A DNA stretch of 24,623 nt from Clostridia bacterium (GTDB taxonomy: Bacteria; Bacillota_A; Clostridia; Oscillospirales; Acutalibacteraceae). The translations under genes and the position numbers were made by a program. The DNA is taken from the NCBI GenBank assembly GCA_024699005.1, contig JAILQN010000274.1, forward strand, positions 1 through 24,623, in the 5' to 3' direction. Positions within the stretch are counted from its first letter, which is position 1; every line of letters starts with the position of its first letter. Below, piece after piece: positions 1,452 to 22,953 of the stretch. The notes below the pieces were generated by a model that saw only the letters and a program-made list of their open reading frames with translations, was not told where the DNA came from and made no database searches.

Positions 1452-2030
1452 TCATTCTGCGGCGGTTTGCACCGCCGCGTTTTCCTGTTCACGGAGCAGG
1501 TCGCGCGTCTCCATCAGAGCAAAGCCGAGAAGATTTTCCCCATCCCAGCGATCCGGGTTCTGCGCTTCCGGATCGTCCATTCCGCGGCGGATCCCCCAGA
1601 TGCCGTCGTAGGGACTGGCCTCCGCAAGGACCTTGTTGCCGGTACCGAGCAGGAACGCCTTTTCCGGTTCGTTCTGCGAGAACTTCGCAAGATTTCCCCG
1701 CAATACGATATCATATTTGTGCTCGTTCCATACGGCGCTGTCAAAATTCCTGACTTTTCTGCCCAGCGCTTTGTACTCTTTCGGCGTATCTGCCGCCATG
1801 ATCTCTTCGCAGGTCTCTCTGTCGGCGAACAGCAGCGCCTTCTGCGCCATCATATACTGTTCCGTTGTGTGGTATTCCACGCCGTCAGCAGTAAAACGGC
1901 AGTCATACCATTGACTGAAACAGGACTTTCTGATCTTTCTGGGCTGCGTCGTATGCCCCCAGAACAGGATGATCTCCGGCATCGTACCGTTATGATACAT
2001 TTCGCGTATGGTCTTTACATCGTATTTCAT
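1452..2030 (-). CDS. NADAR family protein (YbiA-like)
   Basis: A 192-residue protein made of one NADAR domain (formerly DUF1768). Visible family features are EYHTTEQYMMAQKALLF, then TPKEYKALGRKVRNFD, LAKFSQNE, LLGTGNKVLAEASPYDGIWGI and a C-terminal GENLLGFALMETRDLL. Known members are N-glycosidases; YbiA/RibX act on riboflavin-pathway intermediates and others remove ADP-ribose from guanine in DNA. Which activity applies here is not decidable from sequence. Its ATG overlaps the stop of the upstream NMNAT-NADAR gene by 4 bases (2027-2030), so the two are translationally coupled. The C-terminal codons contain a GCGGCGGT/ACCGCCGC inverted repeat. Confidence 0.93.
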   Translation of the reverse strand: MKYDVKTIREMYHNGTMPEIILFWGHTTQPRKIRKSCFSQWYDCRFTADGVEYHTTEQYMMAQKALLFADRETCEEIMAADTPKEYKALGRKVRNFDSAVWNEHKYDIVLRGNLAKFSQNEPEKAFLLGTGNKVLAEASPYDGIWGIRRGMDDPEAQNPDRWDGENLLGFALMETRDLLREQENAAVQTAAE

Positions 2031-3085
2031 TGCAGTTCCTCCCTTTTTTGTTCCCGAAGCTCCATAAGGAGCTGTCCCAGCATGTTTTCTCCGTCGCGGG
2101 TATAACCGTTGACTCCCCAGAAATTATCTTTGTCGGAAAAACAGATCAGCTGCGCCTGCCCGGTGGCGAGCAGTTTTTCCCGCAGATCCGGATCCTGACT
2201 GAATTTCGCCTCAAGTATCCGCCGCATGATCTCCGTTTTCCTGACTTCCCATTCCGCGTCCGGCTTCAGCCTCGAACCCTTTGCTCTCGCCCTGTCACCC
2301 GAATAAGAACGGAATGCGGCGCGCTGATTCGGATCCTTCGTCTTTGACGCATGGAACGCCGCCTCCGCGCAGAGGTATGTTTCCCCGTCAAATGTCACAG
2401 GAGAAGGGAACCGGTTGTCCAGAAACGCATACGAGTCCGTAAACCCCGCGATCTCTTCCGGAAAATCTTCAGCCGATACGTTTCTGATCTGCTCCCATAC
2501 CGCCGGCTCCAGCAGATCCCGGGCATCGCTCCCGTTCAGGATCCTGCGGCGTATCTCAGTCGAGCTGATGCCGGATGCTCCGGCGGGCGTCTGCGGAAAA
2601 AGAAATTCTCCTTTGTGGGCGTACAGCCGCGGGAACATTTCCGGATGTTCGTCCAAAGGTAAACCGTCCCGGCAAAAGATCAGAAGCCCGAACCGTTCCG
2701 GAAAATCTGTCTTTTCAAACACCTTTTCCAGCAAAGCCAGCTTATCCGCGCCTGCGGAATAATACAGCCGTGCCTGCGGATACTCCGGCTGCAGCGCGAC
2801 CAGGAGCCGGTAGAAGCTTGAGACCGGCTGATCCCGGTCCGCTTCGCAAACGGTCATCCGCGGATCTGCTTTGCACATGGCATGCAGCATCTGCAGCCTC
2901 TGTTCATAGGGGAAGAACACCCGCCGCGTATCGTCGTGTTTCAGTTTTCGTTTCAAATATGCGTCGCTCACCGGAACGAACAGTCCGGTCTCAGCTTCGG
3001 CATAGTCCAGAGCCGTCCGCATCAGAAGCATATGAGCGCGTGTCGGCGGATTGAACGATCCGCCCATAACAATGATCCGTTTCAT
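2027..3085 (-). CDS. NMNAT (nicotinate/nicotinamide-nucleotide adenylyltransferase)-NADAR fusion
   Basis: A 352-residue two-domain protein. Residues 3-205 form a cytidylyltransferase-like NMNAT domain, with the nucleotide-binding signature GGSFNPPTRAH (8-18) and the C-terminal ISSTEIRRRI motif (173-182), both intact. NadD-type enzymes join ATP to NaMN or NMN to make the dinucleotide. Residues 215-345 are a second NADAR domain (FPSPVTFDGETYLCAEAAFHASK; KFSQDPDLREKLLATG; FWGVNG; GENMLGQLLMELRE). The fusion links making NAD to hydrolysis of an N-glycosidic bond, so salvage or repair of damaged or ADP-ribosylated molecules is likely. The start is ATG 3085 or GTG 3091; neither has a strong ribosome binding site. 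The end overlaps the next NADAR gene by 4 bases. Confidence 0.9.
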   Translation of the reverse strand: MKRIIVMGGSFNPPTRAHMLLMRTALDYAEAETGLFVPVSDAYLKRKLKHDDTRRVFFPYEQRLQMLHAMCKADPRMTVCEADRDQPVSSFYRLLVALQPEYPQARLYYSAGADKLALLEKVFEKTDFPERFGLLIFCRDGLPLDEHPEMFPRLYAHKGEFLFPQTPAGASGISSTEIRRRILNGSDARDLLEPAVWEQIRNVSAEDFPEEIAGFTDSYAFLDNRFPSPVTFDGETYLCAEAAFHASKTKDPNQRAAFRSYSGDRARAKGSRLKPDAEWEVRKTEIMRRILEAKFSQDPDLREKLLATGQAQLICFSDKDNFWGVNGYTRDGENMLGQLLMELREQKREELQ

Positions 3086-3143
3086 TTTCACAGTATTACT
3101 TCAAAACAAAAGGCCTTGTTGCCGGAATCAGGGGTTAACGTTC

Positions 3144-5458: not shown

Positions 5459-6460
5459 TCACGCCTGTAATTTCTCAAGTATAAAATCGTAGATGTTCCG
5501 GTCCGGGCAGACGAATATAACGCGCATATCATGATCCGGATTTTCCGTCAGCCATCCGCGTACCGCGGCGACGGCGACGCGGCTCGCATCTTTCTTTGGA
5601 TATCTGAATTTTCCGGTGGAGATCGCGGGGAACGCGATACTGTGCGCGTCATGCTCTTTTGCAAGCTCCAGGGACCGGCGATAGCAACTCTGCAGCAGCT
5701 CTTCGTGGTTCTCACAGGGATAACGGGGCCCTACGGTATGGATGATATAATCTGCCTTCAGGCGATATCCCTTTGTGATTTTTGCATCACCGGTCTGACA
5801 GCCGCCCAGTGTCCTGCACTCTGCCAGCAGCTCCGGTCCGGCGGCGCGGTGGATCGCTCCGTCCACGCCTCCTCCTCCCAGCAGAGTTTCATTGGCTGCA
5901 TTCACGATACAGTCACAGTCCGAGAGAGTGATATCTCCGTCGTCGACGTATATGCCGCCAAATGGTCCTCTCAGGCCGGAGGCGGGTATGGCGTCCGGCT
6001 CGGGGATCCCGTTCCGGGAGAGATCCTCCCGCAGCGAGGAGAGGATCTCTCCGAGATGGTTTTCCCCTTCTCCGGTACGAAGATCAACGCCCCAGTAGAC
6101 GTCGCCCCAGGTATTCCCCTCAATGAGCGGCTTGCTGCCGGTATCGATCAGCCATTGTGCCAGATGCGGATTCTGCGTAAACTTGGCGTAAACGATCTTC
6201 CGCATGACGTCAAGCCTGATCTCTTCCCAATCAGGGCGCAGAGGGACCGATTTTCCCATCCGCTTCGCCGAATCCGGCGCCAGATCCGCAAACGCGGCGC
6301 GCGCTTTCGGATCTGCCGTCTTCTGCGCCTGGAACGCGGCTTCCGCGTTATGGTAGGTGATCCCTTCAAATATCAGTTTCGTCGGATAAGAATTGCTCAG
6401 GAAGAAGTATTCTTCTCTGAAGTAATCGATCTTATCTTTTTCTTCGGCGTAATACCTCAT
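5459..6460 (-). CDS. NADAR-macrodomain fusion (ADP-ribose processing)
   Basis: A 333-residue protein with two domains. NADAR spans residues about 12-145 ([59 protein letters not shown]). A macrodomain spans about 168-333, with [20 protein letters not shown] (186-205), [13 protein letters not shown] (220-232), IIHTVGPR and [12 protein letters not shown]. The pattern matches the YmdB/MacroD class that hydrolyses O-acetyl-ADP-ribose or removes ADP-ribose from acidic residues. Joined to a NADAR N-glycosidase, the protein probably strips ADP-ribose from two kinds of linkage. ATG 6460 has only a distant GGAAAG upstream. The next gene upstream (VWA) ends 33 bases away. Confidence 0.93.
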
Positions 6461-9175: not shown

Positions 9176-9703
9176 TTATTTGTCTGATACAGAGTTGTTT
9201 ACCCAGCAAAAAAAGTCGGGCGATAAGGCTTCGTAAAACGGCTTGAGAGAATCGGGAATGGTTTTCTTAAAAAGGTCGAACCATTTAATGATAATATTTT
9301 TCTGTTCAGCTGTGCTCACCGGTTCAAACACAAACGGGATCATTTCGTCATAAAAATCGTGTAATTCGGCAATCAGATTCCCTTGTTCAACAGCCGTTTC
9401 TGCGACAGGGACAGACGCGTCCAAAGAAATATCCAGAGGCCATTTTTCTGTATCTGCAAAATCGGAGATCACAACATCTTTATACTCAAGAAGTTCGCAA
9501 GTTTCACTGAATACAGTGACAGACGCAAACGGTCTTGTCAGGGAGTTGGTATTATAATCTCCTAAATTGTACAGAAAAGCGCGTTCAAAGAGATATTCCC
9601 CCGGCTTATAAGGAATAAATTCCGAAATAATCGGTGCACCATGAATAATATCGGAAACAACACTTTGTGTTGCCGATCTTCGGGTAATATAATTCATTTT
9701 CAT
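9176..9703 (-). CDS. Hypothetical protein downstream of cysteine peptidase (possible immunity protein)
   Basis: A 175-residue acidic protein without signal peptide or membrane helix. I recognise no domain. Visible segments are IIHGAPIISEFIPYKPGEYL, VTVFSETCELLEYKDVVISD and a C-terminal helical part, IIIKWFDLFKKTIP. AAGGAGG stands seven bases before ATG 9703 and the gene begins 12 bases after the peptidase stop, so the pair is tightly coupled. A small unrelated gene directly after a predicted toxin-like protease is the usual place of an immunity or inhibitor gene; that role is inference only. It is the last gene of the AT-richer island. Confidence 0.8.
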   Translation of the reverse strand: MKMNYITRRSATQSVVSDIIHGAPIISEFIPYKPGEYLFERAFLYNLGDYNTNSLTRPFASVTVFSETCELLEYKDVVISDFADTEKWPLDISLDASVPVAETAVEQGNLIAELHDFYDEMIPFVFEPVSTAEQKNIIIKWFDLFKKTIPDSLKPFYEALSPDFFCWVNNSVSDK

Positions 9704-9715
9704 TGTGATTCCTCC

Positions 9716-10462
9716 TTATATGGTATTCAGTCTGAGCGGATCAGTCGAATATACGACATCTCCGCCTTCAACATTTATGAATGTGTTAAATTCTTCAGGG
9801 GTCAAGAGTCGCTTGCTGTCGGATTCCAATCCTCTTCCGCTGTCGCAAATGACAATTCCTTTCAGTTCGAAAGTTTCAGGATCCCTTACTGCTTCAACGC
9901 ATGTTATTTCATGATTCGCGGCTCCCGGTCCGACTGCGTTTGCGTTATTCCAAAGGTAACCGGCGTTTCCGCCGCACATTACAGCGTGTCCCTGTTCTAT
10001 CTTTTGTGCAACGAATTCAGCGTCTGCCGTTCCTCCGTTTTCTATTGATAGTTCTGCTTTTGTTTGTACATCATAATGTCTCAGAATGTCCATTTGCATC
10101 TCTGTAGTGGTTCCGCCTCGATCACTTCGGTGCGCAAAGAATCTGTTAGAACAGAAATTATGTTCCATGGCATATTCCGTAACCTCGTTCTCAGTTGTTT
10201 CGATGCCGCATAAATTCAAAAAGTTGGAGATCGAAACGAGACCGCAGTTTCCCGAAGCGCGGAAAGGATTATCGCCCTGATTATAATCCAAACGCTCAGC
10301 TATGGCTTCGGGTGGACGTCCCGCAACCATTACACCCTCACCATTCAGTCCCTCAAGCGAATCGGTATACTCATAAGGAAGCGTCGCTTCCATATTTTCG
10401 AGTGATTCGACCTTGATTTCTTCTGTTTCGGGTGATTCAAGATACTTGTCCAATAAGTTCAT
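9716..10462 (-). CDS. Papain/C39-like cysteine peptidase
   Basis: A 248-residue protein. The first 60 residues are acidic and low in structure. The catalytic cysteine is in ASGNCGLVSISNFLNLCGI (C73), which is the C-helix signature of papain-like and C39-like folds. The histidine is in GAANHEITCVEA (H184) and the third residue probably in GIVICDSGRG (D207). The order Cys-His-Asp and the strand after H fit the bacteriocin-processing C39 or toxin-type papain-like peptidases. There is no ABC transporter or membrane part. AAAGGAGAG precedes ATG 10462. It follows the HerA-like gene after a terminator-like hairpin, so it may have its own expression level. Confidence 0.82.
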   Translation of the reverse strand: MNLLDKYLESPETEEIKVESLENMEATLPYEYTDSLEGLNGEGVMVAGRPPEAIAERLDYNQGDNPFRASGNCGLVSISNFLNLCGIETTENEVTEYAMEHNFCSNRFFAHRSDRGGTTTEMQMDILRHYDVQTKAELSIENGGTADAEFVAQKIEQGHAVMCGGNAGYLWNNANAVGPGAANHEITCVEAVRDPETFELKGIVICDSGRGLESDSKRLLTPEEFNTFINVEGGDVVYSTDPLRLNTI

Positions 10463-10504
10463 GTTATTACTCTCCTTTCAGATAATCAGTGAGTTTATAA
10501 TAAT

Positions 10505-10539
10505 TCAAAAAAATGAAATATTATCTTTGTTTCATTTTT
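10505..10539 (-). terminator. AT-rich terminator-like hairpin between ATPase and peptidase genes
   Basis: Perfect 10-bp arms AAAAATGAAA/TTTCATTTTT (10539-10530 and 10518-10509 read on minus) with an 11-base loop and a run of T directly after. The stem is weak (one G-C pair), so partial read-through is likely, giving lower expression of the peptidase pair from the upstream promoter. Confidence 0.5.
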
Positions 10540-10555
10540 AGACTTTGAACATCCA

Positions 10556-13500
10556 TTATTTGAAACATTTTTCTTTCCATACGGAGTAGAACATGCGGAT
10601 TCTCGGCAAAGAACCTTTTGTTTGCAAAAACAGATTTACCAACTCGTTCATTGTTTCATCATCACAGACAATGTGTTTTCGGAATATATCTTTTGCCTTG
10701 GTGTCAAATATCTCCGGATTATGTCCATTGACCTCGGGAAGCAGAGTATCCCAAACTGCAGGGCCGCCTATGATATCAAGCAATAAATCAGAATAGGGAG
10801 ACAGCTCTCCGCGAGACCGCTTTTTCCCTGTAATAATTGCAGAATGCAGCAACTCGCCGAGTTTGATATCATAATCGTTTCCAGACGCAAGCTGTCGCGC
10901 AGCTGTCCTAAGTGCCGAACGGTCCGGATCCCTGTTTGAGTTTCCGCTGTGCAGCAACAAAAACTCAAAGGCCTTTCCTCTTGCGGTTGTAAGTTCCGAT
11001 TCGCTGACAGCCTCGTCTTGATTTAATGGATCAGGCTCATTTTCAGACGGCAAAACATATGATACGGCTTTATGCTTTGCCAGATCTGCTTTACAAAGCA
11101 CCGCCTCAAGCCAATTCTTTTGATAAATGGCACAAACACCGGTGCGGAGACGTGAAAGCTCAAATATCTGATCTGCAGTTAACCCCATTGATGTGCCTAC
11201 CGCATTACGGTCTGCTTCGTCGGGTAAACAGAGAATGATTTTTGTATTTGTGTTTCTGATAACGGATTTGTCCAACATTCCCGGAGATTGGTCCGCAATA
11301 ATAAATCCCTCTCCGTAAGAACGCATTTCGGCAATTGCCGAAGAAATCATTTCGACAGATTTTCCCAGCATATCAGAGCTTTCAGCCGAGTGTGAATACC
11401 CGACATTCGGCAACAGATTATGTGCTTCCTCAAGCACAGTAACGTGACGCAAGGCCGAATTTGACGCATCTCTTTGCTGATTGAATTCCACAAGTCGATT
11501 CACAAGGATTCCCATGAAAAGAGCCTTGCTTTCCACAGAACCTACCCTGCTCAAGTCGACAATGACATTGCGCTCAAACAATTCTTCATCGGAAATGTTT
11601 TCCTCGCCGAACACATCAGCGTATATACCTGATGAAAGAGCTTCCAAACGAGTGGAGAGCGCGCCGATATAATTGCCTTTGACTTCATTTGAATAAGATG
11701 TGGATTCCATCTTTTTGTTCAGTTCGGCTATGACATCTTCAATAACCGGATAAACGGCAGGAGTCTTGCTGCATCTGGATGTTTTAAGGTTCCATCCGCA
11801 GGAACGATATGCGTTTTCTATGGCTGTGTTCAACACAGATGGCATGGCGTCATACATGGACCAGCACGCCGTAAAAACCGACATAAGGTTGACTATGTGC
11901 TCCTTTATATCCGTGCCTTCGTTAAACCAAAACAGATTCAGTCTGAGCAGCGGCGTCTTTTTCCGATTCGTACCATATACGAAAACATCATCGTCATGGC
12001 CAAAAACATTCTTATATTCACCCTTGGCCGGTTCTATCACAAAAAACGGGATTTTATTCTTTTTTAATTCCTCAAGCAGCTTGAATACAGTATTGGATTT
12101 GCCGGATCCGTTTGTTCCCGCGATAAAAGTGTGGGAAGAAAGACTTTCAAGATTCAAAAGGACCGGCTGTTTGCTCCGAACCTTGCCCATGTGAACGATC
12201 GAACCGATATTAATCTGTCGGTCGGGTTTTTCCTCGGATTTATACGATACCTCCCTTCCGAATGAGGTATAGTTTGAAACGGTAACTCCGAGAACGGATT
12301 TTTTTGGCAGTGCGGCATGGCGCGCGACTTCGATGCTGCTCATCAGCATTCCCGGTGTAAAACTGCTGTTGATATCGGGAATTGCAAATGATGGATGCGA
12401 AAAGTGTCTTAAATATTCAAGCACCGAGTCTGCGTCGTTTGCCCGTGTCCATGTGTTAATAGCACATGGGAGACTCACGTCTCCTTTTCCCTGCATCAGT
12501 GCCTGATATTGACTCGCAACAAGCAGATTGGTGCTTGCGCTTCCGGAAAGGACATATGCGCAGCAGTTAAAAACTCCGCAGTTTTCCCTTTCGTTTATCC
12601 ACTTCAGCAAGTCGTCGATCTGATTGTTCAGTTCTTTTATGCGACGGTTTTTGTAGGTATAAGAAATGGTTTGCCCCTCGGATGTACCGGTTGTTTCGCC
12701 ACCGCCTTCCTGTCTGGTGACCTGTATCTGCATATTGGTACTGTTTGACGTTCCCGAAGAATAGTCTTCGTGATGTGTATCTGTCGGCTGTGGAAAAAGT
12801 GCCGCAATTGGGTTTGCCCTGAATGGGTTTTTGGACATGGCAATCGTTCCGATAAGAGCGCTTTTCATTACGCTGACTCGCTGTTTGCTCCAGCCTGAAC
12901 CGACGGTATGGTTCTGCGTCTCTCCCACACTTTTTCCTATGCTGTTACCCAGACTCTCGGAATAATTGACCGAGATTGAAGAATTTGTCCCGGTCTGAAG
13001 GCTGTAGTTTATCTGTTCAGCCTGAGATAGTTTGGTGCTGAGTTCTTCATACGCCAGTTTGACGTTTTCTACGTCTAAGCGGCTTAACGGATCTGCGATG
13101 ATCAAAAGCGTGAAGTTTTTATTTTCGGATATTTCAAGCAATCTTTCTATACCCGACATGTTGCCTGAAGAGTTTTCTCTTGCGACGCATGAAATTGATG
13201 AAACACATTGAGTGTTGAAATCGTTAAAAAGACAATCATCCAATTTGGATTGTATGACTTTCGTATCGTCGAATTCGGTCAGTTCCGTTCCGGGAAGATT
13301 TCCCTGTATACTGCTTAGCAATACTTCCCGGATCGTATTTCGGTATTGACTGTTTTCATATCGCTGTTTGTTGATAGCGCCGATATACAATTCGTTATGT
13401 TCATTCTCATGCTTTAACATGATCAACGCCGAAGCGCCGCATGCATGAAGAGCTTTGAACACTGATATCAGTTTGTCTTCGTCCTTGTTGTCCGAGTCAA

Positions 13501-13711
13501 ATACAAGCTCGTTTATTTTAAATAAACAAAGGGCCTCAACCGGATTCATCGATGCTATTTCCCTCGACAGTTTGTTCAGACCGAGAACGCTCAACTGTTC
13601 ATAGTGGGTCTGTCTGATTATAAATTCAGCCCAGGATAGTTTATTCAAAAAACTGTCGTTTTCGTCGGTTATCTCATTATTATGTGTTCTGGGTTGCAAA
13701 TCAGTTTTCAT
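10556..13711 (-). CDS. HerA/FtsK-type P-loop ATPase, 1051 residues
   Basis: A large cytoplasmic ATPase. Residues 1-230 are an unrecognised N-terminal region. Residues 235-350 are rich in S, T, N, G and Q with repeated short S-rich motifs, and are probably flexible. A HerA/DUF87-type motor follows: strand LLNLESLSSHTFIAGTNGSG with Walker A GTNGSGKSN (532-540), PFFVIEPAKGEY (555-566), Walker B VTVLEEAH (757-764) and ADQSP (806-810). HerA-type motors form hexameric rings that pump DNA or move protein substrates. AAGGAG stands before ATG 13711; the gene begins 11 bases after the 334-residue gene. Length exceeds simple HerA (about 500-600 residues). Substrate is unknown. Confidence 0.88.
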   Translation of the reverse strand: MKTDLQPRTHNNEITDENDSFLNKLSWAEFIIRQTHYEQLSVLGLNKLSREIASMNPVEALCLFKINELVFDSDNKDEDKLISVFKALHACGASALIMLKHENEHNELYIGAINKQRYENSQYRNTIREVLLSSIQGNLPGTELTEFDDTKVIQSKLDDCLFNDFNTQCVSSISCVARENSSGNMSGIERLLEISENKNFTLLIIADPLSRLDVENVKLAYEELSTKLSQAEQINYSLQTGTNSSISVNYSESLGNSIGKSVGETQNHTVGSGWSKQRVSVMKSALIGTIAMSKNPFRANPIAALFPQPTDTHHEDYSSGTSNSTNMQIQVTRQEGGGETTGTSEGQTISYTYKNRRIKELNNQIDDLLKWINERENCGVFNCCAYVLSGSASTNLLVASQYQALMQGKGDVSLPCAINTWTRANDADSVLEYLRHFSHPSFAIPDINSSFTPGMLMSSIEVARHAALPKKSVLGVTVSNYTSFGREVSYKSEEKPDRQINIGSIVHMGKVRSKQPVLLNLESLSSHTFIAGTNGSGKSNTVFKLLEELKKNKIPFFVIEPAKGEYKNVFGHDDDVFVYGTNRKKTPLLRLNLFWFNEGTDIKEHIVNLMSVFTACWSMYDAMPSVLNTAIENAYRSCGWNLKTSRCSKTPAVYPVIEDVIAELNKKMESTSYSNEVKGNYIGALSTRLEALSSGIYADVFGEENISDEELFERNVIVDLSRVGSVESKALFMGILVNRLVEFNQQRDASNSALRHVTVLEEAHNLLPNVGYSHSAESSDMLGKSVEMISSAIAEMRSYGEGFIIADQSPGMLDKSVIRNTNTKIILCLPDEADRNAVGTSMGLTADQIFELSRLRTGVCAIYQKNWLEAVLCKADLAKHKAVSYVLPSENEPDPLNQDEAVSESELTTARGKAFEFLLLHSGNSNRDPDRSALRTAARQLASGNDYDIKLGELLHSAIITGKKRSRGELSPYSDLLLDIIGGPAVWDTLLPEVNGHNPEIFDTKAKDIFRKHIVCDDETMNELVNLFLQTKGSLPRIRMFYSVWKEKCFK

Positions 13712-13722
13712 AGCTGGTCTCC

Positions 13723-14727
13723 TTAAAAGTCAGTGCTGAAAAAAACCGGAAATTCCTGCATTTTGACATAAAGCCTGGTAAGCATCTGCAGTTGTCTGTC
13801 AAGTCTGATACGTTTCAGCGTTTGTTCTATTGTTGTTGAGTTTTGCAATGTATCAATTTGTTCCTGCAAGTCGTCTTTTGTTGAGAGAGTATTATCCAGA
13901 ATAGAAATAATTCTTTTTATGTACTTGATTTTTTCACGCAATACTGCTGTTTGTATGTATTTGCTTTCTGTTTCAGCGGCATGTATTTCCGCATCACTTA
14001 TAACAATGGATACCTGAGACAACATGCCGCCTTTGGTTTTTGCATAATCCTTAAATAAATCCGCCCGTCCGGTATCAGAGAAAACGCAAAAGACCATTCC
14101 AGGTGCTCTTTGCAGACCGGAATAAAGACTTTCAACTGTTTCAAATCCGGAGAAGGATTCAAATATGTCTCCGTTTATGCGCACGCACGTCCCGATGCTT
14201 TTCTTTGCCGTCGAGAATGATGTCTCATCGTCCGCATTGACAAAACCGTCTGCTTCTTTAAACGCTTTGAGATAATCATTTATTTTGCCGGATTCTTCGT
14301 GAAACAGTTCAGAAAACGATTGTTTGACTTCTTCCCCGGATGTATTTCCGATGGCAAATCGGTATTTTTCGGATATAAAATTACTGATCAGTTCGTACGA
14401 TGAGTCGATTTTGTCTTTATATTCAGAAACCACGTCTTTTGCTTCAAATTTGCAAACAATGTCCCGTTCATTTTTAATTGCGGTTTGAAAATCCTCATAG
14501 TCCGATTCTCTTCCGCGAAAGACTATTTCGCAATAATCACCGCGTCTCAAAGAATTCAGTTCATATGCAAAGCCGTTGACATGATTCAAGCCGTTTATCC
14601 AGCTTTGTATGATCCTTCCGCTGTAAGCATAAAGGAATCCGAACGGATCGTTTCTGTTTGTTTGCTCGCCGTTGATCGTTACATCCAGTTTTGGGAAAAC
14701 AGGATCATATTCAAGTTCTAATTTCAT
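13723..14727 (-). CDS. Hypothetical coiled-coil protein, 334 residues
   Basis: I recognise no family. ATG 14727 is preceded by AGGGAG; the frame extends to 14772 without a better site. The N-terminal half looks like a beta-rich fold (LELEYDPVFPKLDVTINGEQ; GDYCEIVFRGRESDYEDF). The middle has MVFCVFSDTGRADLFKDYAK and QVSIVISDAEIHAAE, alternating strands and helices as in a small Rossmann-like unit. The last 90 residues are helical with heptad patterns (EKIKYIKRIISILDNTL; RIRLDRQLQMLTRLYVKM). No membrane helix is seen. Its position between the Hsp70-like and HerA-like genes makes it a likely adaptor of the two ATPases, which is inference. Confidence 0.82.
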   Translation of the reverse strand: MKLELEYDPVFPKLDVTINGEQTNRNDPFGFLYAYSGRIIQSWINGLNHVNGFAYELNSLRRGDYCEIVFRGRESDYEDFQTAIKNERDIVCKFEAKDVVSEYKDKIDSSYELISNFISEKYRFAIGNTSGEEVKQSFSELFHEESGKINDYLKAFKEADGFVNADDETSFSTAKKSIGTCVRINGDIFESFSGFETVESLYSGLQRAPGMVFCVFSDTGRADLFKDYAKTKGGMLSQVSIVISDAEIHAAETESKYIQTAVLREKIKYIKRIISILDNTLSTKDDLQEQIDTLQNSTTIEQTLKRIRLDRQLQMLTRLYVKMQEFPVFFSTDF

Positions 14728-14791
14728 ATTATTCTCCCTGAAAAGCATCTGCGGCAATTTTGCGCGAAGCAATTGCCGCAGAAAGACCTTT

Positions 14792-16993
14792 TTATCTGCT
14801 TTCGATTGAAAATTTGATGCTGTCGGCGCGCTGTCTTATCTGAGCAGATAAACTTTCAACTATGGATTTTTTGACACTTTCAAAAACTTTGTTATCTTTA
14901 AGAGATAACTCGATTTTTCCTTTGATATCCGCTTCTGTCAGCTTTTTGTTTATTTTGGCGTCCTTAACCATGTTGCGGAGAAAATGCGGAAGATTGTATG
15001 CCTGCAGTTTTTTCTGAAGTTCACGTTTTATATTACTTGTGCCCCTCAGGACGGCTCTTGCCGCGACAATACCTCCAATGGCAATGATAACAATATCTCC
15101 CACGGGCCAGGCAGCAACGAGAATTTCAAGCACGAGTATAAACAGTGTTTCGGATATCAACGGCAATACTATACCCAAAACAGTACCGACAACTATCGGC
15201 GTCAGAATGCCTGCGACAATTCCGGTGACAGCCGCCAACAGGCCGCTGACCACACCGACAATCGTCTCCGTAGGATTCAATGTTACCTTGCCGATATTCA
15301 CATCGTTTATTCTGAATAAGTCCAGATCTGCTATCGACATGTTTTTTACTCCGTATTTTTGGCAGATTTCGCCGAGCTTTCTCTTAAGAGCTTCGCCGAT
15401 ATCGGAGCTGAACCACTGTGATAAAGCCTTTATAAAATCGGCATTGTTCTCAAGAAGTCTGTTTATATTTATTTCCGAACAATCCGCTTCGATGGCGTTG
15501 TTCATGTCGTCAAGTGTAACAAATTTCATATCCCTCCATTGTGAAACACGTGTTTTTACGATGCTCAGGACCTCTGTTTCTATTATGCCGGAAAGACGGC
15601 TGCAAAGAAGAGGGTATTTATCTTTTATCAATTTTGGCAAGTCCTCATTAATAAACTTCCTGATATCTTTCTGGAACTCCTTGGATGTCTCATTCGCGGG
15701 ACCGACAAGCGCAAGCCCTTTTGATATTGTGCGCGCCGGGTCAAAATCATAAAGGATTTCCGCTTGAAAAATATCATTTATCGTATCCTTGACAAAGGAC
15801 ATTTTGGACGCGCTTCCGGTCAGGATGATCTTGCCGATTTTAAGTCCGTGGCTGTCGATTTTCCGTTTCTGTTCTCTGAAAAACTGACTGAAACAGTCCA
15901 GCCAGGATTTTTCTCCGATCATGACAGCTTCGCGTTCGTTCAGATTCGCGGTCTTTTCAACAGCCTTACGGACAGAAGCCGTTTTTATCAAATCCATTAC
16001 TGTATCCTGGTCAAGATCCACGGGCATCAATCCATGAACAAAAATCGATGTCATTCCGCCTGCGGAAAAAATGTCTTCTTTAGCTTTACGGCAATTCAGC
16101 AGCACGCCGTTATCAAAAGTCGGGTTCAATTTCGCCAGCTCCACGTAACCTTGTCTCATGGTCGGATCAAGATTCTGTATAAACCAGTCTTTTATCAGAT
16201 AGTCGATACATCTTGCGCCAAGATAGGTGCTGCCGTCATTATACAGGTGATTGATGCCGTCAGGCGACATGACTGTCAGATCAATAGTAGAAGAACCGAT
16301 GTCTATCAGCAATACCGAGGATCCGTCGGCGGGTACCAGATGATTGTTCTTGTCGTTTTTAACATAGAGAAACGCTGCGCGGGATTCCGCTGCCAATACG
16401 ATTTCGGCAGGCTTATCCTCAAATGTCGAATCACCCAAAACCGACTGAGAAAGAACAGCTCTGTATACAGCAATATCCAGGTCGTTCCACTTTGTAGGAT
16501 GTCCTACGCAGAATGTGACAGACTCACAATCGGATATTTCATCTTTAATTCTGTCGTAAAAATTCGGAGCGCAGAACACGTTGTTGGTAAAAGAAATGAC
16601 AGATTCTGCGAATTGTTCGAAACTCTCGTTATTCAGTTCGGGGAATTCGTCTTTACTGATCTGCATGCCGTTATCCGACATGGATATTATTTTCTGCTTT
16701 CTTTCCTCGGAAATTTCACCTGTCAGGTCTGTTGGCCGACGCTTGAAATTGGCTTGTATGTTTCTGTATTTATCCGGGAACCTGCTTACTTTCGACGCAA
16801 AAACAAAACCTCCGTTATCATCAAAAGCGTAAACCGTCGGAATAGCCACACCGCATTGAGTGGAATCCGGCATGGTAACATTCTTGAACTGAAAAGGTAT
16901 AGCCTGTGTTACCAACTGCTTGTCTATTACAATCAGATCTACGATAGTTTCTCCGTCACCGAGATCATACCCTATGTAAGCTTTTTTTGACAT
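14792..16993 (-). CDS. Hsp70/actin-fold ATPase with C-terminal membrane domain
   Basis: A 733-residue protein. The Hsp70-type nucleotide-binding fold spans about 1-435: phosphate-1 AYIGYDLGDGET (5-16), a connecting AAESRAAFLY (201-210), phosphate-2 VLLIDIGSSTIDLTV (227-241) and adenosine motif IILTGSASKM (389-398). No Hsp70 substrate-binding beta domain follows. Instead there is a helical region (435-570), a glycine-rich hydrophobic stretch at 576-648 able to form three or four membrane helices, and a basic amphipathic helical tail. The build suggests a membrane-tethered ATPase switch rather than a housekeeping DnaK. GGAGG precedes ATG 16993. It follows the coiled-coil gene by 18 bases. Confidence 0.88.
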   Translation of the reverse strand: MSKKAYIGYDLGDGETIVDLIVIDKQLVTQAIPFQFKNVTMPDSTQCGVAIPTVYAFDDNGGFVFASKVSRFPDKYRNIQANFKRRPTDLTGEISEERKQKIISMSDNGMQISKDEFPELNNESFEQFAESVISFTNNVFCAPNFYDRIKDEISDCESVTFCVGHPTKWNDLDIAVYRAVLSQSVLGDSTFEDKPAEIVLAAESRAAFLYVKNDKNNHLVPADGSSVLLIDIGSSTIDLTVMSPDGINHLYNDGSTYLGARCIDYLIKDWFIQNLDPTMRQGYVELAKLNPTFDNGVLLNCRKAKEDIFSAGGMTSIFVHGLMPVDLDQDTVMDLIKTASVRKAVEKTANLNEREAVMIGEKSWLDCFSQFFREQKRKIDSHGLKIGKIILTGSASKMSFVKDTINDIFQAEILYDFDPARTISKGLALVGPANETSKEFQKDIRKFINEDLPKLIKDKYPLLCSRLSGIIETEVLSIVKTRVSQWRDMKFVTLDDMNNAIEADCSEININRLLENNADFIKALSQWFSSDIGEALKRKLGEICQKYGVKNMSIADLDLFRINDVNIGKVTLNPTETIVGVVSGLLAAVTGIVAGILTPIVVGTVLGIVLPLISETLFILVLEILVAAWPVGDIVIIAIGGIVAARAVLRGTSNIKRELQKKLQAYNLPHFLRNMVKDAKINKKLTEADIKGKIELSLKDNKVFESVKKSIVESLSAQIRQRADSIKFSIESR

Positions 16994-17011
16994 TTTATAT
17001 AACCTCCACCG

Positions 17012-17740
17012 TCACTTGATAAATATTGTTCCGCTGCATACAACTCTATCGCCCGACATTATGCACGGTATCTCGTTCTTACTGTCCGGATCGTTTAAAT
17101 GAAGTTCGGCAAACATCTCTTCTTTTGCCAATGGCAGGTCATCGCCGGAGAAAACTGCTGATAAAGACAAATGATAAAGAAGTTGATTTGCGGCATCTTT
17201 TGTTTCATCTGTCGCATCGCTGCTTAAAACTTTCTGTGCCCATATGCCAATGTCCCTTTCGGTTTTCTCGTTTTTGATTATTTCCTGATTCAGACGGTTC
17301 TGAACTTTATCCAGTTCGGAATTCATATCCCGGTTCTGTTCCAATAGTGCGTCAAACTGAGATTTTACTTCGTTTGTCGATGCGGCAAGTATTTCTGCCA
17401 GATCAATAACCGCTGTCTCGAATTCATTGTCATTTAAAGAAATCGGTTTCGTCGACAGATCGATATCGGATCCTTCAACGGCTGATTTTATTTTGGAAAT
17501 AACTTCCTGGATTTTAATGATTTTTCTTCCGCTTAAGCCAAGAACACGATTGATCGGGTTTGCGGAAGAATGACTCAGCTCGTCTGAGATGATCTCTTCA
17601 ATTGCGTTGCTGTCAACATCTACGCTATTCAACAATGAAACGATTCTGTCAGCGATGACTTCGCTGTTTGCCACGGTTTTTTCATTGAATGCGTCCGATA
17701 CGATTGCGGATGCGTTTTGCAAAACTTCATTGTTTTTCAC
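17012..17740 (-). CDS. Coiled-coil protein, possible partner of the Hsp70-like ATPase
   Basis: A 242-residue soluble protein starting at GTG 17740 behind GGAGG at good spacing. Residues 1-120 are helical. Residues about 120-160 show a coiled-coil pattern (VKSQFDALLEQNRDMNSELD; VQNRLNQEIIKNEKTERDIG). A shorter helical part follows, and the end is beta-like (EIPCIMSGDRVVCSGTIFIK). A long coiled coil ahead of a small helical and beta end recalls GrpE, the nucleotide exchange factor of Hsp70. I see no GrpE signature motif, so this is only an analogy supported by the gene's place directly before the Hsp70-like gene. Confidence 0.8.
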   Translation of the reverse strand: MKNNEVLQNASAIVSDAFNEKTVANSEVIADRIVSLLNSVDVDSNAIEEIISDELSHSSANPINRVLGLSGRKIIKIQEVISKIKSAVEGSDIDLSTKPISLNDNEFETAVIDLAEILAASTNEVKSQFDALLEQNRDMNSELDKVQNRLNQEIIKNEKTERDIGIWAQKVLSSDATDETKDAANQLLYHLSLSAVFSGDDLPLAKEEMFAELHLNDPDSKNEIPCIMSGDRVVCSGTIFIK

Positions 17741-17757
17741 TTAAATAACCTCCGGTT

Positions 17758-18015
17758 TTAATTGTCGTATATAACTTCCAACGGCAAACTGTCATCTTCT
17801 GTTTTATAGATTTCCCATAAATCCGATTCTGACAGGTTTTCGTTGTTACTTGAAAATGTTCTGATATGGACAACGTTATCATTATCGATATATGAATCCA
17901 GCACCTCTGCAAATCCGTCAAGCTTGTTCGCCAATTCTTCGGGCAACAGCTGTCGTATTGCTTCCGTGCCCGGTATGATACTGTCAAAAAACTTTTTTGA
18001 AATATGATCTGACAT
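17758..18015 (-). CDS. Small hypothetical acidic protein, 85 residues
   Basis: ATG 18015 lies nine bases after AAGGAG. The protein is acidic, starts with SKKFFDSIIPGTEAIRQLLP and ELANKLDGFAEVLDSY (two helices) and ends with LPLEVIYDN. No family is recognised. The stop is 17 bases before the start of the coiled-coil gene, so it belongs to the same transcript. A small helical protein at the head of an ATPase operon may be an adaptor or sensor, which cannot be shown here. Confidence 0.7.
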   Translation of the reverse strand: MSDHISKKFFDSIIPGTEAIRQLLPEELANKLDGFAEVLDSYIDNDNVVHIRTFSSNNENLSESDLWEIYKTEDDSLPLEVIYDN

Positions 18016-18090
18016 ACGAAAAACTCCTTGAATGACAACAAAATGATACCATTGTTAAAGATAAATACGGCTATTTTTCATTTTTAAGCG

Positions 18091-18840
18091 TCAAACAGAT
18101 ATATTTTGCATATAATCACTAACCGCTTTTGTATATTTTCTGCTTACAGGGATTCTGACACCTTCATTTGTGATGATCTCATGCATGGTTTTGTCATACA
18201 CTGATATGACCGAATAATTGACTGCAAAGCTTTGATGGACTCGGAAGAAATATTTAGAGTACGGTGCAACAATATCGTCCATCTTGCCGAGTTTTTTATA
18301 AACAGTGCCGTCCCTGCTTACGCACATGACATACTTTAAATCGCTTTGGAAATACGCCACAGCGGATATGGAAACCGAATAATCTCCCTTTTTCGTTGAA
18401 ATCTGAATAACGTTATCGCTATTTCTCAGCATGTCAAAACACATAGAACTGTACTTCATGATTCCTGTCTGGTCATCTGAGCCGTCAAGATGTCCCGCAG
18501 GTCGAAGCAGCAAATATTTGCAGATCTCTTCTTTTGGATTTCCTACCGGTATAGACATACACCATGGATTTTTTAAAAAAAGATTCTGCAGATCTGATTG
18601 ATGCGTTTTGAGGAAATCATAAGAAACAAATATCATGTCAAGGGAATCAAAGTTTTTCAGCAGTAAATCAAAATCATCCGGATAATACGCTATATCGATA
18701 TCCCGATTCTCCAATGTATCGTTTTCGGTATCTCCGGATAAGGAAAGATCATGGATTTTTAAAGCAGCCGAAATCAGGGCCTTTGTCAGCTCGTTCTCTT
18801 TGACTGCATCCTTAAGAATCAAACCGCATCTGATTATCAT
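18091..18840 (-). CDS. LytTR-family transcriptional regulator
   Basis: A 249-residue protein. The C-terminal 100 residues are a LytTR DNA-binding domain: VIQISTKKGDYSVSISAVAY, FQSDLKYVMCVSRDGTVYKK, the signature YFFRVHQSFAVNYSVI and VRIPVSRKYTKAV. The N-terminal 120 residues look like a degenerate receiver or sensor (DIDIAYYPDDFDLLLKNFDS; DMIFVSYDFLK; PVGNPKEEICKYLLL). A clear phosphoacceptor Asp site and a Lys in the usual context are not obvious, so phosphorylation is doubtful. ATG 18840 has AGGTGG at correct spacing; the GTG at 18849 would overlap it. No histidine kinase is nearby. It probably controls the following seven genes. Confidence 0.9.
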   Translation of the reverse strand: MIIRCGLILKDAVKENELTKALISAALKIHDLSLSGDTENDTLENRDIDIAYYPDDFDLLLKNFDSLDMIFVSYDFLKTHQSDLQNLFLKNPWCMSIPVGNPKEEICKYLLLRPAGHLDGSDDQTGIMKYSSMCFDMLRNSDNVIQISTKKGDYSVSISAVAYFQSDLKYVMCVSRDGTVYKKLGKMDDIVAPYSKYFFRVHQSFAVNYSVISVYDKTMHEIITNEGVRIPVSRKYTKAVSDYMQNISV

Positions 18841-20800: not shown

Positions 20801-22045
20801 ATGGCTTACAGCGAGCTGATAAAAAACTTCGACCGCATCCGCGACTATATGCGGGAATTCTACGTATACGGCTTCAAAAGCCGTGACGAATATACGAAGA
20901 AAAGCGCCCGTTCCTATGACGACGAACGCCGGCGTCTGGAAAGCTGGCTCGGCGATCATATGGGGTTCAGACAGACGCCTGACGGGAAGAACGTGTTTAT
21001 TTCCATAGACAGCCGGGTCTCGCGTCACAACCCGCTGTACAAGGCGTGGAAAACGAAAAGCTTTACCGACGGCGATATTACGCTGCATTTTATGATATTC
21101 GACATCCTGAGTTCGCCAGATACCGTGCTGACGCTGAATGAACTGTCGGAAAGGATAGACGGGTATCTTCTTTCCTTCAGCGGGTACAAAGCATTTGATT
21201 CGTCCACGGTCCGCAAAAAACTCAACGAATATGTTTCCGAAGGGATCATAGTATCGGAAAAACGCGGAAAAACGATGTATTACCGGCGCGCCGGTACGGT
21301 CGGATTTCACGACACCGATATTCTCGATTTCTTTTCGGAGGTCGCTCCCTGCGGCGTGATCGGCTCTTATCTTCTCGATAAGGAGCAGCGGCACGACGGA
21401 CATTTTACTTTCAAGCATCATTATATTACCGGCGCCATGGACAGTGATATAGTATGCCGGCTGTTTGAGGCGATGGGTGAAAAAAGATGCGTCTTGCTTG
21501 AAACCGTGAACCGTTACAGGGACAGCGTCACGGAAAATCAGGTCGTGCCTCTCCGTATAATGATCAGCGCGGTGAGCGGCAGACAGTATCTTATGGCGTA
21601 CGTTCCGCGTTTCAGACGGATCACGTCTTTCAGAACGGACAATATCCTTTCGGTAAAGCCTGAAGATAAATGCGACAGCTTTGACCGGCTGCGTGAGGCG
21701 CTCGACGGAATGACGCCTTATATCTGGGGCGTCAGCACGCAGAGCAGATCCGGAGACCGTACGGAACACGTGGAATTCACGATCGTATACGCGCCGGACG
21801 AAACGCATATCCCCATGCGTCTTGAACGCGAAAAACGCTGCGGTACGGTGGAGATCACTGACGACGGACACGCCCGGTTCAGCGCCGACGTCTTCGATTC
21901 AAGCGAACTTGTCCCGTGGATCAGGACGTTCATCTGCAGGATCACGGACATCAGCTTTTCAAACAGGGAGCTCGAAGCGCAGTTCCGGAGTGATATTGAG
22001 GATATGTACGCGCTTTACGGCGTGAAAGGCGGTGACTCTCCGTGA
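20801..22045 (+). CDS. WYL-domain transcriptional regulator, first of a pair
   Basis: A 414-residue protein. Residues about 15-65 and 100-165 contain helix-turn-helix-like parts (ARSYDDERRRLESWLGDHMG; FDSSTVRKKLNEYVSEGIIV followed by a basic wing). A WYL-type beta domain spans about 230-310 (VVPLRIMISAVSGRQYLMAY; RFRRITSFRTDNILSV) and a WCX-like extension follows to 405. In this family WYL binds a small ligand or nucleic acid and controls DNA binding. A strong AAGGGAGG precedes ATG 20801. The stop overlaps the start of the second WYL-like gene, so they are coupled, perhaps as a heteromer. Confidence 0.85.
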   Translation: MAYSELIKNFDRIRDYMREFYVYGFKSRDEYTKKSARSYDDERRRLESWLGDHMGFRQTPDGKNVFISIDSRVSRHNPLYKAWKTKSFTDGDITLHFMIFDILSSPDTVLTLNELSERIDGYLLSFSGYKAFDSSTVRKKLNEYVSEGIIVSEKRGKTMYYRRAGTVGFHDTDILDFFSEVAPCGVIGSYLLDKEQRHDGHFTFKHHYITGAMDSDIVCRLFEAMGEKRCVLLETVNRYRDSVTENQVVPLRIMISAVSGRQYLMAYVPRFRRITSFRTDNILSVKPEDKCDSFDRLREALDGMTPYIWGVSTQSRSGDRTEHVEFTIVYAPDETHIPMRLEREKRCGTVEITDDGHARFSADVFDSSELVPWIRTFICRITDISFSNRELEAQFRSDIEDMYALYGVKGGDSP

Positions 22046-22953
22046 TGTTCAGCGAACTTTACGGCGCTTATTACAATACTGTCGCCGCCGTGCTGAGAGC
22101 CGCGGTGGAACGTCCTCTCGGGAAGGACGAACTGCATGAGATCATCAGCGAAAACGCGTTCGGCGAAAGCGTTCTGAATATTGAACCCGCGATAACGGGG
22201 GAGAGGTGGCAGCTTATCCGCCGGGACGGCACCACTCCTTTGAAAAACGCCCCCACCATGCCGCTCACGACGCTTGAAAAACGCTGGCTGAAAGCGGTTT
22301 TTTCCGATCCGAGGATCAGGCTTTTTTCTGATGAACTGCCGGAGCTGCCCGGCGTCGAGCCGCTTTTCGGTCCGGATGACTTTTCCGTATTCGATAAATA
22401 TTCGGACGGGGATCCTTACGAAGACGAAGAGTATATCCGGAACTTCCGCCTGATACTCGGCGCGATCCGCAGCAGGACGCCTCTGCATATCGAAATGACC
22501 GGCGGAAAGGGCAGACGCACCCACGTGATAATGATGCCCGATCAGCTGGAGTATTCCGAAAAAGACGATAAATTCAGGCTGATCGGCTCCGGCTGCAGAT
22601 ACGGCGGGACCGTCAACCTCGGAAGGATCGTCAGCTGTGAGCAGTATAAAAAGCCGTTCGTTTTTTATGACTCGAAAACCGCGGGAGACAGGGAACGTAC
22701 GGTGGAATTCGAGCTGTTTGACCGAAGGCGCGCGTTGGAACGGGTGCTTCTCCATTTCGCTCATTTTGAGAAACAGGCGGAAAAGCTGGACGGGGACCGG
22801 TACAGGGTGACGCTCAGATACGACGCGGAGGACGAGACGGAGCTTGTTATAAGGCTGCTGTCTTTCGGGCCGATGGTAAGGGTGACGTCGCCGGAGTCTT
22901 TTGTCGGGCTTATAAAAGAAAGGCTGATAAGCCAGAAAAACTGCGGACTTTAA
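22042..22953 (+). CDS. WYL-family regulator, second of a pair
   Basis: A 303-residue protein lacking an obvious N-terminal winged helix of normal length. After LSPLTTLEKRW-like residues typical of the linker (here MPLTTLEKRWLKAVFSDPRI), residues about 150-215 form a WYL-like domain (LHIEMTGGKGRRTHVIMMPD; FRLIGSGCRYGGTVNLGRIV) and the end is a WCX domain (RALERVLLHFAHFEKQAEKL; RLLSFGPMVRVTSPESFVGL). The start is GTG 22042 or ATG 22045, both behind GGCGGTG and overlapping the previous stop. Having a regulator with and one without a clear HTH side by side suggests that they work as one unit. Confidence 0.82.
   Translation: MMFSELYGAYYNTVAAVLRAAVERPLGKDELHEIISENAFGESVLNIEPAITGERWQLIRRDGTTPLKNAPTMPLTTLEKRWLKAVFSDPRIRLFSDELPELPGVEPLFGPDDFSVFDKYSDGDPYEDEEYIRNFRLILGAIRSRTPLHIEMTGGKGRRTHVIMMPDQLEYSEKDDKFRLIGSGCRYGGTVNLGRIVSCEQYKKPFVFYDSKTAGDRERTVEFELFDRRRALERVLLHFAHFEKQAEKLDGDRYRVTLRYDAEDETELVIRLLSFGPMVRVTSPESFVGLIKERLISQKNCGL

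Follow-up and report, generated by a model that had tools for sequence, protein, structure and literature searches.

The window (the whole stretch of 24,623 nucleotides analysed here: Clostridia bacterium, Acutalibacteraceae; GenBank assembly GCA_024699005.1, contig JAILQN010000274.1) carries on its minus strand an operon of eight genes. This operon very probably encodes a membrane-associated, ATP-driven toxin/immunity machine of a family that shares a HerA-like ATPase. By sequence comparison, it is the version of the family in which an Hsp70/actin-fold ATPase with a membrane region takes the place of dynamins. The operon probably serves attack on other bacteria or killing of the infected host cell. 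The family is apparently widespread and undescribed. The core parts are listed below in operon order (aa, amino acids).

14792..16993, minus strand: Hsp70/actin-fold ATPase, 733 aa, with a C-terminal hydrophobic region (homologues, phosphate-loop columns, weak DnaK/HscA matches).
15038..15271, minus strand: hydrophobic stretches of the Hsp70-like protein, residues 575-652, predicted to insert into the membrane (hydropathy scan).
13723..14727, minus strand: 334-aa adaptor (cluster 12; structure model pLDDT 86).
14464..14727, minus strand: N-terminal 'YN' domain of the adaptor, common to the dynamin-like protein of sister systems (hhalign).
10556..13711, minus strand: HerA/FtsK-superfamily ATPase motor, 1051 aa (DUF87, 2.3e-13).
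12092..12121, minus strand: HerA-like Walker A (AGTNGSGKSN; columns invariant or nearly so in 27 homologues).
11420..11446, minus strand: HerA-like Walker B region, ending LEEAH (E761, E762, A763 and H764 invariant in 27 homologues).
9716..10462, minus strand: papain/C39-fold cysteine peptidase, 248 aa, in the toxin slot; residues 1-20, low-confidence leader.
9842..10246, minus strand: peptidase stretch with predicted catalytic Cys73, His184 and Asp207 (invariant in 38 aligned homologues).
9176..9703, minus strand: predicted immunity protein, 175 aa (cluster 14; position after the peptidase).

The comparison includes 88 HerA-homologous loci (numbered L004, L006 and so on): 80 loci retained from a scan of GTDB contigs with a HerA alignment, which gave at least 412 relatives; seven plasmid loci; and the window. 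This count excludes L089 and L094, which are fragments of L010 and L008. The GTDB loci belong to Bacillota (66), Spirochaetota (6), Pseudomonadota (3) and Synergistota (1); 4 are unplaced. Gene calls in unannotated contigs are the author's own, clusters were made by BLAST, and many loci are contigs of metagenome-assembled genomes (MAGs). The HerA tree has 86 rows, the distant L006 and L007 also being left out; the leader comparison includes 85 proteins, L004 being additionally left out.

The order Hsp70-like, 334-type, HerA, peptidase, 175-type is found in all seven loci with a full-length Hsp70-like protein (the window, L008, L009, L010, L011, L012 and L014). This recurrence exceeds chance, and the adjacency of Hsp70-like and HerA-like genes in other genomes, which the initial annotation had proposed to check, is thus observed. 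Conversely, most of the 88 HerA loci carry dynamins or other nucleoside triphosphatases (NTPases) in place of the Hsp70-like protein. By eye and among the matches listed, 12 of 53 other HerA clusters and 23 of 119 other peptidase clusters match a listed Hsp70-like cluster in the length of their longest contig. One MAG carries Hsp70-like and peptidase genes under locus tags 07585 and 07600.

Comparison supports reading the two genes 3′ of the HerA gene as a toxin slot followed by an immunity slot. In plasmid relatives (E. coli, Lactococcus, Exiguobacterium, Treponema), an HNH-type nuclease comes after HerA; an SMI1/KNR4 protein is next in three of the four. A Pfam scan of ten proteins of the first slot gave informative matches for seven: WHH with Colicin-DNase, LHH, Endonuclea_NS_2, GH-E, TNT, Gln_amidase (papain fold toxin 1) and HNH, the last just below the cut-off; the three others have no informative match. 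Ten second-slot proteins comprise four SUKH/SMI1_KNR4, one DUF6985, one ankyrin and four unrecognised proteins. The classes found in the two slots are coupled (2.27 bits over 72 pairs; maximum among 2,000 shuffles, 0.94). One-member classes were excluded, leaving 72 of 81 pairs in this test and 74 rows in the toxin count given below. The toxin label of L025 is wrong, its first open reading frame (ORF) being fragmentary and its immunity gene having been taken as the toxin; this single-occurrence class is uncounted. L066 and L075 have an additional nuclease/immunity pair downstream. In a Ruminococcus albus plasmid (L004:11817-13364), the toxin slot holds a 515-aa protein with Gly/Ala-rich stretches (by eye), possibly a pore former.

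The same comparison supports a machine part (NTPase, YN-domain adaptor, HerA motor) that evolves separately from the cargo. Machine type changes 7 times on the HerA tree for 8 types, the possible minimum (200 shuffles, 25-31; 80 rows, six loci without a machine label being excluded). Toxin class changes 29 times for 8 recurrent classes (shuffles, 33-40; 74 rows) and differs in 19 of the 40 closest HerA pairs. In Brachyspira, L026 and L061 have HerA proteins 91% identical, with unrelated toxins and partners. L048 and L076 (HerA 88% identical) have leaders 60% identical over 55 residues, with different toxins and partners. L079 and L081 (HerA 71%) have 37% of 84 leader residues in common and share neither toxin nor partner. 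L035 and L080 (HerA 72%) differ in both, and no common leader was found for them. Among 2,850 leader pairs across toxin classes, the ten best scores (175, 134, 109, 109, 95, 77, 75, 75, 75 and 67) are all above the highest shuffled pair (65; 5,700 shuffled pairs). A shared leader, a swapped catalytic end and a co-swapped partner are marks of polymorphic toxins. In the wider family, the toxin is accompanied by a gene directly downstream that is exchanged with it and whose product is predicted to neutralise it; variable catalytic domains behind a shared N-terminal region are found there too.

In the window, the peptidase is well supported as the putative toxin and the 175-aa protein as its dedicated immunity partner. 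The Pfam C39 match of the 248-aa protein is below the cut-off; the papain/C39 call of the initial annotation is upheld by the structure model, which is papain-like, has the Cys-His-Asp triad and matches known papain toxin/immunity pairs. Cluster 14 (175-type) lies immediately 3′ of the peptidase gene in 8/8 loci, and SUKH proteins occupy the same slot in some sister loci. The C39 and 175-type pair is also found in L058 and L153, there inside other machines. The peptidase had been annotated as cargo or executioner with a small partner; a toxin/immunity pair agrees well with this, export being the more conditional part.

YN denotes an N-terminal domain of about 90-120 residues, named for its YNPY motif. 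In sister loci with paired dynamins, it forms the start of the second dynamin; it also begins the 334-aa protein of the window and single proteins in L004, L042, L058 and L085. The YN domains of the dynamin and of the 334-type match by hhalign at 99.0% (single-comparison E 2.1e-18). The four single proteins match the dynamin at 99.5% and the 334-type at 97.1%; the Sel1 type matches at 81-87%. In 22 control comparisons, against other gene families from the same operons, no value exceeds 0.7%. A YN profile matches 59 of the 88 loci, 52 of which supplied its sequences; homology was therefore tested solely by hhalign and its controls. The 29 loci negative for the profile include 14 of the second-dynamin type, three GAP1, three Sel1 and nine others, either distant or with few called genes upstream. 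The domain common to the 334-aa protein and the dynamins places the window system in the same family.

The genes 5′ of HerA were labelled by the author in 86 loci: paired dynamins with a small adaptor, mostly with a hydrophobic segment (49); a second dynamin type (14); Hsp70-like and 334-type (7); Sel1-repeat proteins (3); GAP1 (3); an Exiguobacterium type (2); single cases, L058 and L085; unlabelled (6).

The Hsp70 fold had been proposed from the sequence. The Pfam Hsp70 score of the 733-aa protein is 16.2 (cut-off, 20.6 bits; region matched, 224-431 only) and DnaK/HscA models match weakly, but the actin-fold phosphate-loop columns are invariant across 21 aligned homologues, in favour of the proposal. 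Unlike DnaK-type Hsp70 chaperones, the protein is under the gathering score and has a hydrophobic C-terminus where these chaperones carry a substrate-binding domain. BLAST cluster 11 has 12 members, among them fragments and two distant proteins; 11 of the 12 have such a hydrophobic stretch. At least 475 homologues were reported. Matches at 1e-20 occur in 2/391, 6/397 and 58/300 genomes scanned; the full-length type is found in 4 of these 66 matching genomes (G001, G002, G005 and G006, all known beforehand), the other 62 having distant or partial matches. The full-length gene is thus rare among the genomes scanned. The phage records searched contain no relative of the protein, 27 pattern matches in viral contigs include no true relative, and a plasmid search gave a single distant match.

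A group of Hsp70-like proteins of about 640 aa (the bulk of the 58/300 genomes) was considered as additional members and rejected: no HerA relative was found in the six contigs fetched (L101-L106; stretches of 6.3 to 19.9 kb, that of L106 reaching no further than the Hsp70-like gene; gene calling did not recover the match of L101). In L102-L106, this common group adjoins a 284-314-aa protein; such a match is found in 56 of 300 genomes of one family. L011 carries a second, partial Hsp70-like gene (15045-15815, 256 aa) 3′ of the immunity gene, perhaps a remnant.

The HerA-like protein has a variable Ser/Thr-rich insert N-terminal to its ATPase domain, and at least 54 homologues were reported. 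Its best PDB sequence match is HerA 4d2i. Among 5,426 E. coli genomes, one contains the plasmid HerA.

The following mechanism is proposed. LytTR would control operon expression. Inside the producing cell, the 175-residue protein would hold the peptidase in an inactive state. The YN-domain adaptor and a HerA hexamer would dock on the membrane-anchored Hsp70-like ATPase, whose ATP cycling (GTP cycling in the sister dynamins) would open or remodel a membrane site. HerA would strip the toxin from its partner and drive it out of the cell by its leader; the exported toxin would hit neighbouring bacteria that have no partner. HerA is akin to FtsK-type protein-export ATPases. Delivery to other cells rather than release at home is favoured on the type of cargo, the co-exchanged immunity, the shared leaders and this kinship; its chances are put at about even. 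Such a system would be a new class of protein-delivery machine: HerA and a YN adaptor on an exchangeable membrane NTPase, with toxins pushed out by membrane remodelling, without a needle, and Hsp70 replacing dynamin. This class is proposed tentatively, at a little under an even chance.

A plausible though less favoured alternative is an intracellular suicide or anti-phage module. The membrane NTPase would sense infection or membrane damage, the HerA hexamer would free or activate the toxin at home, and the partner would be an antitoxin. Several observations weigh against delivery. Some of them favour suicide: no envelope-crossing, adhesin or pilus part is recognised by Pfam among the eight window genes; the toxin domain is constant within the Hsp70 lineage (7/7 loci); no orphan partner gene occurs in 300 genomes, all three partner-bearing genomes also having the peptidase. 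Ten toxins contain no known trafficking or receptor-binding domain (E up to 0.01), no universal short leader motif stands above shuffles, and toxin class still partly follows the machine in descent, with 29 changes against a shuffle minimum of 33. Likewise, the eight window genes contain no known trafficking domain or secretory route. Relatives are also found in Gram-negative bacteria. A conserved core with variable last two genes, expected under delivery, is found across the family (8 toxin classes), but not inside the Hsp70 lineage, where C39 and the 175-type are constant.

A location in defence islands had been named as support for a suicide module. Flank proteins match 128 PADLOC families at 1e-15, against 8 for controls, and suicide gains by this; the contrast is overstated, since families and not proteins are counted and several models match one protein. 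Of 110 flank proteins sampled, 106 entered the test, four judged to be operon parts having been removed; the 110 controls, taken from the starts of contigs in 16 genomes, were cut to 106 for equal size. No PADLOC family matches more than two flank proteins; mad3 matches nine control proteins. Two of the matching flank proteins are WYL regulators, which may belong to the operons. The families matched by flank proteins include MTase, PtuA, AbiLi, AriA, DrmMII and PD-T4-6. Suicide is also favoured by the weak matches of sister-locus dynamins to LeoA/LeoBC, by the match of HerA to PADLOC HerA models, and by three loci that join HerA to a GAP1-N2-type cluster and probable GTPases, systems held to be non-secreting in the available part of PMC7159879. 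It is disfavoured by cargo domains of the polymorphic-toxin kind, exchanged with their partners and sometimes placed behind shared leaders, features that suicide effectors would presumably not require, and by L154, where a C39-like domain and an FtsK-type ATPase share a locus. Both models of the initial annotation, export and abortive defence, thus draw support: the toxin/immunity pair stands, and the destination of the toxin is divided between them.

Two further explanations fare less well. The peptidase could be a maturation protease of the machine (like C39 domains in PCAT/ComA transporters), with the 175-residue protein as a chaperone and the true cargo elsewhere. This is improbable: sister loci fill the same two slots with nucleases, a TNT-like domain and other toxins and their partners, and L085, which has a distant Hsp70-like protein, has a papain fold toxin 1 (Gln_amidase) in the toxin slot. 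A DNA-handling system, with HerA pumping DNA to the effector as in HerA-nuclease capture systems, agrees with the homology to DNA translocases (CedD model, 2.8e-26, 92 of 600 bits) and with the nucleases among sister effectors, but is very improbable, DNA being of no evident use to peptidase, Gln_amidase or TNT-like effectors and the membrane NTPases and immunity genes being left unexplained.

PADLOC, NCBIfam and Pfam give no match to a named system with this gene set, as the initial annotation had supposed, and no description of the combination was recognised in searches of the open PMC literature (subscription papers and most preprints being outside this scope). Type VII secretion uses the FtsK-type motor EssC/YueA. 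It also has an FtsK/HerA-superfamily ATPase beside toxin/immunity genes, and L154 has a C39-like domain near an FtsK-type ATPase; the window HerA differs in being of the DUF87 type, with Hsp70/dynamin partners, and the eight genes have no Pfam match to WXG100/LXG or an EssC-type ATPase. HerA-effector anti-phage systems pair HerA with SIR2 or DUF4297. They share a HerA-like ATPase and an enzymatic effector with the window, which is far under the curated models (42.2 of 800 bits for HerA_antiphage and 21.3 of 850 bits for a second model), has a separate immunity gene and a membrane NTPase, and has no match to SIR2 or DUF4297 among its genes.

The paired bacterial dynamins of the larger sister group resemble the LeoABC/Eleos dynamins. 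Dynamin_N is found by Pfam in sister loci but not in the window genes, and the sister dynamins match Leo models weakly. LeoA is reported, in the available part of Michie et al. 2014 (PMC4159319), to enhance toxin release. DO-GTPase/GAP1-N2 conflict systems have an NTPase core and variable effectors, some with Hsp70 and GrpE, and are held not to secrete these effectors (Kaur et al. 2020, PMC7159879, available part). The NTPase core with variable effectors is a likeness, as is a GAP1-N2-type protein in three HerA loci (Pfam match in L066; BLAST cluster in L067 and L074); the window has no GAP1, FNIII repeats or GTPase. Polymorphic toxin systems (PMC3482391) resemble the window operon in their short toxin, variable catalytic domain, some shared leaders, adjacent cognate immunity gene and cargo swapping; the difference is that the operon brings its own HerA motor and Hsp70 or dynamin NTPase. 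The delivery routes named in the available part of PMC3482391 omit a HerA and Hsp70/dynamin route.

If the toxin/immunity reading holds, a single conflict-system family equipped with its own motor probably unites hundreds of operons from gut bacteria and plasmids. The genes of these operons, where checked, are annotated as 'ATP-binding protein', 'dynamin family protein' or 'hypothetical protein'. The family would account for toxin/SUKH pairs that have no known delivery route. With dynamin and Hsp70 engines exchanged on one adaptor domain, the role of bacterial dynamins in such systems can be tested directly, and the family is defined well enough to tell delivery from suicide experimentally.

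The other genes of the operon are listed below.

18091..18840, minus strand: LytTR-type transcription regulator, 249 aa, first gene (Pfam LytTR, 3.2e-13).
17758..18015, minus strand: 85-aa small protein, function unassigned (ORF, short gaps).
17012..17740, minus strand: 242-aa protein with coiled-coil-like matches (cluster 17).

L058 and 4 of the 7 Hsp70-type loci carry the LytTR gene (BLAST cluster 18). In L008, L009 and L011, the position of the 85-aa gene is taken by short proteins that bear, close to the C-terminus, a similar WEV/WEI motif (by eye). The 242-type gene lies immediately 5′ of the Hsp70-like gene in 5 of the 7 Hsp70-type loci, and its product is a possible partner of the Hsp70-like ATPase.

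The eight ORFs at 9176-18840 have the coordinates given in the initial annotation, are all on the minus strand and are separated by 75, 17, 18, 64, 11, 93 and 12 bases, in agreement with the co-directional genes and short gaps described there; its LytTR and HerA/FtsK-type calls are confirmed by Pfam (LytTR, 3e-13; DUF87/HerA, 2e-13). A good ribosome binding site, claimed for every gene, is seen by eye (GGAG/AAGGAG/GGAGG-like) 5′ of seven of the eight starts, the site of LytTR being weak. The start of LytTR is likelier ATG 18840 than GTG 18849, and that of the 334-residue gene is likelier ATG 14727. G+C per gene is 0.38-0.45, against about 0.49-0.57 in the flanks (1-kb windows). Promoter-like matches (25; shuffle mean, 21.5) and terminator-like matches (14; 10.2) are near chance, and transcription signals are therefore not claimed.

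Elsewhere in the window, two proteins have NADAR domains, one (2027-3091) together with a cytidylyltransferase-like domain, the other (5459-6460) together with a Macro domain; 1452-2030 appears by eye to encode a third NADAR protein. Tandem regulators with WYL and WCX domains (20801-22953, other strand, outside the operon) adjoin an ion-channel gene; WYL-type regulators also accompany many dynamin-type sister operons. In L066, L067 and L074, the HerA relative lies shortly 3′ of GAP1-cluster genes and probable GTPases, and a transglutaminase-like protein (by eye) follows HerA; through these loci, the HerA family is connected with NTP-dependent conflict systems already in the literature. L074 further encodes an Hsp70-like protein whose end is probably vWA. 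In L155 (3409-11146), a C39-like peptidase whose N-terminus resembles calcium repeats (by eye) is accompanied by a weak match to the 175-aa family (9e-5) and then by three dynamin-cluster genes; no HerA was found within the stretch examined. In L154 (9203-10444), a C39-like domain ends a 413-aa protein; the locus includes an FtsK_SpoIIIE ATPase, ThiF and JAB and is possibly a mobile type VII-like system.

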